Positions 71-12,380 of a DNA stretch of 64,000 bases are shown here, in pieces. The stretch is taken from contig SHZJ01000003.1 in NCBI GenBank assembly GCA_009692365.1, positions 1 to 64,000 on the forward strand, read 5' to 3'. The position numbers were made by a program, and so were the translations under genes. The notes beneath the pieces are model-generated. The model worked only from the letters and a program-made list of their open reading frames with translations. It did no database searches and had not been told where the DNA came from. Numbering within the stretch: the first letter of the stretch is position 1; each line of letters starts with the position of its first letter. Source of the stretch: Gammaproteobacteria bacterium (GTDB lineage Bacteria; Pseudomonadota; Gammaproteobacteria; Ga0077536).

Positions 71-147
71 GCGCCCGTAGCTCAGCTGGATAGAGTACCT
101 GGCTACGAACTAGGGGGTCGGAGGTTCGAATCCTTCCGGGCGCGCCA
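71..147 (+). tRNA. tRNA-Arg (anticodon ACG)
   Basis: Cloverleaf readable: acceptor GCGCCCG/CGGGCGC, D-arm AGCTCAGCTGGATAGAGT, anticodon loop CTACGAA, T-arm GGTTCGAATCC, encoded CCA end. Confidence 0.95.
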
Positions 148-400
148 GACATAAAAGAACCGGCTTAATGCCGGTTTTTTATGTCTGGCGGGTCGGGAGG
201 CAGAGTCGAGCCTTTAAAGGTTCGACGGACTCGCAATGCAAGTCCGGACGCACGCAGTGCGCCCCGCAGGGGTGAGCAAACGCCCTAGCGTTTGTGAATC
301 CATCCTTCCGGGCGCGCCCAACATAGAAGAACCGGCTTAACGCCGGTTTTTTTAGGTCTGATGGGCTTAGAGGCAGAGTCGAACCTCCTCAGGTTCAACA
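131..400. repeat. Direct duplication of tRNA-Arg 3' end + terminator + flank (about 131-230 and about 303-400)
   Basis: tccttccgggcgcgcc..acata.aagaaccggctta.tgccggtttttt..gtctg...gaggcagagtcga.cct present twice. Confidence 0.85.
158..181 (+). terminator. Rho-independent terminator after tRNA-Arg
   Basis: AACCGGC-TTAAT-GCCGGTT followed by a T run; near-identical copy at about 330-353. Confidence 0.8.
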
Positions 401-1630: not shown

Positions 1631-3106
1631 CTATTTGTATAGTTGTAATTGTGTCACGACTTCCGCTAGCGCACTCTCCCAATCACCGATTGCAGGTTGC
1701 CGGAATAATGTTGCGGTGGGATACCAAGGCGTGCGAGTTTTATCCAAGGTCCAACGATAGTCCGTAGAAAATGGCAGTAACACCCAAACCTCTTGACCAA
1801 GCGCGCCAGCAAGATGTGCAACTGAAGTATTTATGGAAATCACCAAATCCAAATTTTTAATCATGGCTGCCGTATCCGAAAAATCATTTAAGTCTTGCTG
1901 ATGGTCATAAAGTTGCTTGAATTCGGATCAAACGGCAGTATCGCCCGGTCGCATTTCTTTTTGCAAGGCATGAAATTCAAAGGGTAACTGCAACAGTGGC
2001 GATAATAAATGCAGTGGCATACTGCGATTCTTGGCGGGGATTGAATCAATGTTTCTATCAAACATGCCAGACCAAACTAACCCAACTCGCGGTTTGGTTT
2101 TATGGCCTAAACGCTGCTGCCAGATTGCTTGTTTATTCTTGTCCGCATAGAGCTAAGGGATGTTGGCAGGAACGGTTGCGATCGTAGTCTTGAATGCCCA
2201 TGGCAAACTCATCGTTGGGCAGTGCAGGTCAAAGTCAGGTAACGGTTCACCTTTCTCAACTATCGTTAAGTTGCCTCCCAAGGTTGACAGCAAGGTGACC
2301 AGTGATGAGGGCGCCTCAAGAATAACCTGAGCGTTAAGTTTTTCCACCATTGGCACATATCGACAGAGTTGAATGGTATCCCCCAGTCCTATTTCTGTAT
2401 GAATTAATAAGGTCTTACCAGATACGGGCTCCTTATTAAGCCACTGCGGTTGACGCAATGTTCTGCTAATTTGTGCATAGGCTTTAGTTTTTAATCGCCA
2501 TTCGTGAAGCTCCCAGCCTTGCGCATAATCTCCGGTGAGAAGTTTTAGAGTAGATTTGCCCCAGTGGGCCTCGGCAAAATCAGGTTTCAATTCAATCGCA
2601 CGGTCATAACTGGCAAGTGCCTCGTCTAATCTTTTTGCGTCTTGAAGTGCATGCCCACGATTACTGTATGCCAGAGCAAAATTCGGCACTAACTCAATTG
2701 CACGGTCATAACTGACAAGCGCATCGGCCACCCGGTTTAGTTTGCAAAGGGTATGTCCGCGATTTAAGTGGGCCTGTGCGAAATCAGGTTTTAACGCAAT
2801 CACACGCTCATAATTTACCAGCGCGTCGTCCCATTGTTTTAACGTAGAGAGCAAATTCCCACGGCGAAAATATCCGTTATGAACTGCTGGTTGCAGCGCT
2901 ATCGCACGGTTAAAATTTGCCAGCGCTTCCTCAAATCGCGCCAAATCTTCAAGTACTTTCCCACGGTTGAAGTGTGCTCCAGCATGATTTGGATTGAGTG
3001 CAATCACGCGGTTGAAACCTGCCAACGCCTCAATCACTCTACCTGCTTGGTAAAGTGACCTTGCCTGCTGGAAAAGGGTATTTGAATTCGGTACGGGGTT
3101 TTTCAA
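1631..3106 (-). pseudogene. TPR-repeat protein with C-terminal glycosyltransferase-9-like domain, two in-frame stops
   Basis: ORFs 2153-3106 and 1631-1864 lie in one frame; translation continues through TAG (2153-2155) and TGA (1928-1930) with homology to the paralogue at 58940-60482. Confidence 0.75.
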
Positions 3107-11507: not shown

Positions 11508-12380
11508 TCAGCGTGGCACGGCACCGGGTGGGCGCGGTCGGAGCTGGGGAAAATCCGGGTGCCGGAACGGCGAACCGGGCTGCGCGAGCGCCATTTTCTT
11601 CAGCGCATGACGCCCGCCGTCGTCGTGCTTCAAACCGTCGATGTTGGCCATGCCGTCATGTGGGCGCGCCGCGCACCAGGCGTCGTCGCCGAAAAAACGC
11701 AGCGACAGCGTACGTCGGCGCACGCCCGCCAGCGTCGGTGCGCCACCGTGCAGGACAGCGGGATGGAAAATCACCGCGTCACCCGGCGCTACCGCCCACG
11801 AGAGGATATCGAAAGCCGCACGTTGGGCGTCGACGTCCGGCAGTGGCGGCCACTGCGCAGGATTAAACAGATTGGCGCTGACATCGTCTGGCTTGAAAGC
11901 GGATGGATTGTAGAGCGGGCCGCGGTGCGAGCCACGCACGAACTCCAGAGAACAAGCCTGACTCACAGGATCCAGACACAGCCACATCACGGCGAGATGT
12001 TCGCCGGCCACCGGCAGGTAAGGCAGGTCTTGGTGCCAGGGCGTGCGGCGGGTCGCCGCGCCTTCCTTGAGCCAGATCTGTTCGTACATCAGCCACACAT
12101 TGGGGCAGGCGAAGAGCGCCGCCGGGAGGTCGGCGAGGGAAGTATCGCAGAGCAGTTCACGGTAGGCCGGGAACGCATCTGGGTTCGCTTGGTCCTGATA
12201 GAAGGTGCCCGGCGTGCCGAGCAGTACGGCGCCGGCGCCCGGCCCTGGGTGCGCCAGCGTCCATTCAAAGCTCTGCGCAGCGAGCGCTAGCGTGGGCGGG
12301 GCGAGCGCGTTACGGATGACCAACGCGCCGTCCTCGCGAAATTTGCGCTGCCACTCGGCCACCCGATCGGTCTCCAGCAT
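11508..12380 (-). CDS. Phytanoyl-CoA dioxygenase (PhyH) family protein
   Basis: 290 aa; WHQDLPYLPVAGEHLAVMWLCLDPVSQACSLEFVRGSHR, PGDAVIFHPAVLHGG. Confidence 0.88.
   Translation of the reverse strand: MLETDRVAEWQRKFREDGALVIRNALAPPTLALAAQSFEWTLAHPGPGAGAVLLGTPGTFYQDQANPDAFPAYRELLCDTSLADLPAALFACPNVWLMYEQIWLKEGAATRRTPWHQDLPYLPVAGEHLAVMWLCLDPVSQACSLEFVRGSHRGPLYNPSAFKPDDVSANLFNPAQWPPLPDVDAQRAAFDILSWAVAPGDAVIFHPAVLHGGAPTLAGVRRRTLSLRFFGDDAWCAARPHDGMANIDGLKHDDGGRHALKKMALAQPGSPFRHPDFPQLRPRPPGAVPR

Follow-up and report, generated by a model that had tools for sequence, protein, structure and literature searches.

Why is a tRNA gene that has its own terminator followed by a row of closely packed hairpins and then by a second copy of its 3' end? 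The question is raised by the beginning of the window, i.e., the whole stretch of 64,000 nucleotides that was analyzed (contig SHZJ01000003.1, positions 1 to 64,000, of the gammaproteobacterial assembly GCA_009692365.1). A sequence-only reading had described five back-to-back hairpins directly downstream of tRNA-Arg and had offered a structured RNA, a cruciform or recombination hotspot, and a tRNA-associated mobile repeat as explanations. All five hairpins are present at positions 205 to 294 and all belong to the minimum free energy structure of positions 150 to 300, whose RNA fold of -70.4 kcal/mol compares with -48.9 +/- 4.15 for shuffled sequences (z = -5.18; 0/200 as good). The two copies of the tRNA 3' end and terminator that were said to enclose them were likewise recovered (130 to 180 and 302 to 352, 92% over 51 nt, with the first 17 nt identical). 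The grouping of the five hairpins as one kind holds for H2 to H5, which form a conserved element designated E, but not for H1, which is composed of an antisense and a sense T-arm and depends on the tRNA. The locus consists of the following parts:

71 to 147, plus strand: tRNA-Arg (ACG), the host tRNA gene (ARAGORN; Rfam RF00005, 62 bits)
125 to 131: T-loop of tRNA-Arg (ACG), with A58 at 129 and N59 at 130
130 to 146, plus strand: first copy of the direct repeat, tRNA positions 59-73 (17/17 identical to 302-318)
148 to 186, plus strand: the tRNA's intrinsic terminator, a symmetric hairpin with a T-run between tRNA and element (sequence, fold)
186 to 213, plus strand: the tRNA 3' half in degenerate antisense form, comprising acceptor strand, T-stem, and T-loop (aligned locally with the reverse-complemented tRNA 3' end)
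205 to 226, plus strand: H1, in which the antisense T-arm GTCGAGCCT pairs with the sense T-arm AGGTTCGAC (fold; palindrome)
218 to 225: partial sense copy of the T-arm, AGGTTCGA
226 to 301, plus strand: element E (C...GAATCC), the conserved unit of 76 nt (match of covariance model R1; unit ends also seen at head-to-tail junctions)
227 to 245, plus strand: H2 (fold; double changes in 7/8 model pairs)
249 to 261, plus strand: H3, with a C(GCA)G triloop (fold, covariation, stem alignment)
262 to 272, plus strand: H4, CCCC(GCA)GGGG, almost invariant (alignment, covariation)
273 to 298, plus strand: H5 (277-294), with a tandem G.A step (274-275 / 296-297) at its base and T273-A298 as the closing pair
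302 to 318, plus strand: second copy of the direct repeat, tRNA positions 59-73
302 to 399, plus strand: incomplete second tandem unit, which comprises the 3' end, the terminator, and the antisense T-arm and ends before its own H2-H5

The element is neither chance nor a plain terminator, and the earlier view that more than a simple terminator is present proved right. A plain intrinsic terminator, i.e., a single GC-rich hairpin with a T-run, was rejected as an explanation of E, which has a conserved core and no T-run after its hairpins; the terminator of the locus is the hairpin at 148 to 186. E is placed between A58 and N59 of a duplicated tRNA 3' end, the last 17 nt of tRNA-Arg preceding the final A (130 to 146) recurring exactly at 302 to 318. 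The second tandem unit is broken off at ~399, ahead of H2-H5, by an insertion sequence remnant of the IS3 type (400 to 1450), which has an integrase core domain (PF00665, rve) and broken frames. Further downstream, an open reading frame on the minus strand (2153 to 3106) resembles the gene of a TPR-repeat protein, as judged by eye from its translation. The window's own genome (G000) contains one full copy of E only. The last 149 nt of contig C39 of this genome (L066) equal positions 1 to 149 of the window; its stop two bases past the tRNA marks an assembly branch, probably owing to strain variation in the sequence after tRNA-Arg. A further copy of the tRNA-Arg 3' end (GTTCGAATCCTTCCGGGCGCGCCA), with no tRNA and attachment-site-like in appearance, is found at positions 1458 to 1474 of contig C59 (L033).

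In a DNA search of relatives, this arrangement was recovered within the genus and family after tRNA-Arg with anticodons ACG, TCG, and CCG, tRNA-Ser, and tRNA-Glu. A pattern scan of 84,980 genomes yielded 55 stretches, most of them in records of Gammaproteobacteria (Woeseiaceae, Alcanivorax, Saccharospirillum, Porticoccaceae, and others). One of the stretches, L112, appears to be a chance hit, the surrounding sequence showing no element. Covariance model R1 was built from 44 sequences of relatives, mostly from the pattern-scan stretches, and matches the window at 221-305 with 91.5 bits (E = 6.5e-27 in a search of its own genome), this copy belonging to the training set. At E <= 0.001, R1 matches were found in 135/369 Gammaproteobacteria genomes, representing 112 of 274 genera, and a phylum sample including other classes gave matches in 55/299 genomes. 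Copies after other tRNA genes, which the sequence-only reading had proposed to look for, were encountered: tRNA-Arg, Ser, Glu, Gln, Tyr, Pro, and Asp are all followed by this core. Homologues, compensatory changes, and folding better than that of shuffled sequence, the lack of which it had named as counting against its proposal, were all found. Near-identical copies are dispersed away from tRNAs in two genomes of other classes (G410 and G460), and head-to-tail units with the junction GAATCA^CAAA occur in L280 and L107, in agreement with the unit ends inferred from tRNAs. The searched phage and plasmid collections contained no match to the element. In L041 (near 1916 and 12224) and L070 (near 156), E is broken at the same point past H3, between GTGCGC and GGGC, and the sequence after the break is almost identical in L070 and the L041 copy near 12224. 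This recurrent break was considered a possible insertion hotspot. Seven loci (L074, L077, L085, L086, L095, L118, and L122) come from public MAG records titled Klebsiella pneumoniae. These titles look wrong, because at least one of the contigs, that of L077 (71,176 bases), has the same size and element as G004:C16, which belongs to a member of the window's genus.

The position of E relative to its hosts follows a narrow rule. Copies found with R1 are nearly always located just 3' of a tRNA or within a copy of a tRNA loop, after TYGA, and 118 of 140 copies have TTCGA as their left flank. Across the fetched loci, E is mostly on the tRNA strand at a median of 75 nt past the tRNA (copies within 200 nt), and its 3' flank usually repeats the end of that locus's own host tRNA. 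The anticodon loop is entered in tRNA-Ser(CGA) (L113, L110) and Ser(TGA) (L177) and the D-loop in L221 and L228, again with E after TYGA; the insertion point in T-loops and anticodon loops lies past the fifth base of the seven-base loop. In L174, L192, and L176, E interrupts a tRNA copy immediately upstream of an intact tRNA. The spacer between tRNA and E also bears the signature of its host. Among 56 copies with an intact tRNA upstream, its mean alignment score against the antisense of the own tRNA 3' end was 13.1, compared with 8.4 for other tRNAs and 6.1 for shuffles; the own-tRNA alignment exceeded all 50 shuffles in 45 copies and the mean of other tRNAs in 55. H1 likewise varies with the host tRNA across loci. 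That H1 and the flanks are sense and antisense copies of the host tRNA's 3' half had escaped the sequence-only reading, as had the kinship with the rtT repeats of Escherichia coli.

Judged from intermediates and colinear anatomy, E is a divergent relative of these rtT/RtT repeats (RF00391). At the E. coli K-12 tyrT locus, where RF00391 reaches 133-137 bits, each rtT repeat has E's order of parts: an antisense T-arm, GGTTCGA, H2, H3, H4 (CCCGAAGGG), H5, and the tRNA 3' end are common to E and the tyrT-tyrV repeats, and the tandem units are of similar length (178 bp in E. coli, 172 bp in the window). Both have direct repeats of the tRNA 3' end, and the RtT trait of a repeat unit that lies downstream of a tRNA and bears the 3' end of this neighbor is present in the window (130-146 = 302-318). 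Also shared is an H5 with a tandem G.A and a covarying closing pair, a feature of the E family that corresponds to the tandem G.A motif plus an additional covarying pair described in RtT (Rivas 2020, PMC7657543). The two differ in the host tRNA (Arg in the window, Tyr in E. coli), in the terminator ahead of E in the window, and in their loops and stems. RF00391 did not match the window at the gathering cut-off (45 bits) or at E <= 5, Rfam finding the tRNA only, and gave 0 matches in the window's genome. In the class sample, it matched 60/340 genomes (22 above the cut-off), and many of these matches lie at R1 coordinates, e.g., G254:C14, G221:C286, G233:C36, G153:C140, G078:C30, G323:C98, G050:C52, G333:C1, G347:C19, and G321:C73. 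Conversely, R1 matches 18/20 loci chosen with RF00391. Since the two models meet at the same places, E is homologous to rtT. The direct match of R1 to E. coli rtT is weak (E = 5e-4) and poorly aligned and was dropped as proof of homology.

The structured-RNA option of the sequence-only reading was right about a conserved fold: RNAalifold on alignment A1 gave 24 pairs, 16 of which show compensatory double changes. It fared less well with respect to the kind of change. RNA stems tolerate G.U far above A.C, and near-equal tolerance is expected of DNA palindromes. In the accepted helices of E (127 distinct rows), 2396 Watson-Crick, 26 G.U, and 20 A.C cells were counted, compared with 1758, 69, and 4, respectively, in the acceptor and T-stems of 154 tRNAs from the same loci. 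The difference in G.U versus A.C (26/20 and 69/4) has a Fisher p of 7.5e-7, which is a guide, as the rows are related and the alignment is fitted to the R1 structure. Because A.C is about as frequent as G.U, the change pattern of the E stems looks like that of DNA palindromes rather than RNA, although stems without any function might likewise be kept perfect by replication errors that correct palindromes. For positions 218-302 folded as single-stranded DNA, z is -3.0 with the plus and -3.7 with the minus strand. About 90% of copies have a GNA triloop in H4, and C(GNA)G triloops form unusually stable DNA mini-hairpins; the 9-mer CGCGAAGCG has been described as such a hairpin (PMC10527192). The tandem G.A step of H5 is GA/GA in 86/127 rows, in which the closing pair covaries between T-A (41) and C-G (34), with T.G in 3 and few others.

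Taken together, we place about even confidence in the reading that E is a tiny noncoding mobile DNA element, a row of single-stranded DNA hairpins that inserts after TYGA in tRNA loops and is related to rtT. Among the three original options, the tRNA-associated mobile repeat is therefore the best supported, given the fixed insertion point in tRNA loops, the many tRNAs concerned, and the dispersed and head-to-tail copies. The unit of about 75-80 nt would work with its tRNA-sense strand folded and would move into one point after TYGA, usually the T-loop between A58 and N59 and more rarely the tRNA-Ser anticodon loop or the D-loop. In the usual arrangement, the host tRNA stays intact because the locus has a second copy of positions 59-73 after E. 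The stretch between tRNA and E holds the terminator as well as the 3' half of this tRNA in antisense; the flanking copies may have arisen during insertion or repair, by template switching at the terminator and T-arm palindromes. Either a tyrosine recombinase or a single-strand transposase like those of the Y1/IS200-RAYT type would be a candidate for the enzyme. Genomes with E have Y1_Tnp genes more often than those without (110/135 versus 137/234, p = 6e-6, uncorrected for phylogeny and genome size), but E was located within 1.5 kb at only 2/30 Y1_Tnp loci. A RAYT partner was accordingly not retained, the genome-level association being accompanied by almost no linkage.

The strongest competitor of a mobile hairpin element is an RNA gene, in which E would be a structured RNA cut from the tRNA primary transcript, as for E. 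coli rtT, and act as a small RNA, e.g., on the stringent response. It would fit the homology to RtT, whose Rfam type is Cis-reg, the strong folding, and the GNRA-like loops and tandem G.A, which suit RNA as well. Transcription in some rtT relatives happens, as rtT-like RNAs were detected on Northern blots in A. pleuropneumoniae (PMC4986893, which cites Bosl and Kersten 1991). We nevertheless regard an RNA gene as unlikely. In the window, a terminator with a T-run separates the tRNA from E, and 46/88 scored copies have five consecutive T after the tRNA; the covariation shows no RNA-typical excess of G.U, and E is found after tRNAs that are unrelated to one another, as tandem arrays, and inside broken tRNA copies. 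Folding also predicts an RNA closing helix between the antisense arm and the 3' copy, but this helix does not seem to be favored when the copies diverge: where the downstream 59-73 copy differs, the antisense arm is closer to the true tRNA in 23 versus 3 cases, a rough count whose compared 17-nt windows favor the tRNA by two positions.

Less probable still is an inert by-product of replication slippage and template switching at tRNA and terminator palindromes that was spread by recombination of tRNA 3' ends. Such a process would leave what is seen here, namely tRNA 3' halves copied in direct and inverted orientation around palindromes, tandem units of about 160-175 bp, and an antisense copy that tracks the host tRNA; yet the core (GGACGC..CCCCGCAGGGG, tandem G.A, GAATC) is common to genera, families, and classes and could not have arisen locally on every occasion. 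T-loops and anticodon loops are classical sublocations of integrases, and the 59-73 copies resemble typical att cores, so that E might be part of the attachment site of integrative elements using these tRNAs, its hairpins being recombinase arms or attC-like sites. A tyrosine integrase (PF00589) by tRNA-Arg in L069 and a close relative by an E array in L048 would agree with this. Both integrase genes are convergent to tRNA-Arg, located behind two E units in L048 and directly behind the tRNA in L069. An attachment site nonetheless strikes us as very improbable, since the L069 integrase of the same kind lies at a tRNA without any E, an unsystematic look revealed no integrase near most copies examined, and no tRNA accompanies the dispersed copies of G410 and G460.

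The kind of element found here is thus known, whereas its range, insertion rule, and DNA-like behavior look new against the literature searched; the head-to-tail and dispersed copies are also new here, as is the antisense copying of the 3' half of the tRNA that each host locus itself contains. The rtT repeats, known for decades as a by-product of an E. coli tRNA transcript, have so far been described as RNA of unclear role. A tRNA-loop insertion model for rtT was not reported in the literature searched, whose coverage excludes most subscription journals. Many members are missed by the Rfam model, as a comparison of the 22/340 genomes above its cut-off with the R1 counts indicates. More tentatively, the whole rtT family may represent widespread minimal mobile single-stranded DNA hairpins that insert after TYGA in tRNA loops, with the host saved by the duplication of the 3' half in two orientations. 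If rtT-type repeats are mobile hairpins targeted to tRNA loops, few known mobile elements would be as small, the frequent duplications of tRNA 3' ends beside tRNA genes would be easier to explain, and the repeats would demonstrate how an essential gene can be targeted and yet survive.

Several established systems invite comparison. The REP/BIME palindromes with their RAYT transposases, like E, have short conserved hairpins, dispersed copies in some genomes, and DNA-like covariation, and a similarity of rtT to BIME attenuators has been noted (PMC2965389). E differs in its array of four hairpins, its fixed insertion point in tRNA loops, and the lack of a linked RAYT at most loci; a cognate Y1 transposase gene flanked by palindromes, by which REP/RAYT systems are recognized, was not found at the Y1_Tnp loci, 2/30 of which are near E. 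The attC sites of integrons resemble E in that folded hairpins of single-stranded DNA are their working form, but E inserts into tRNA loops, has no cassettes, and shows no attC core motif. Unlike tRNA-associated integrative elements and genomic islands, E comprises 76 nt without genes and is surrounded by antisense tRNA sequence, but it shares with them the direct repeats of the tRNA 3' end and a tRNA that is left intact.
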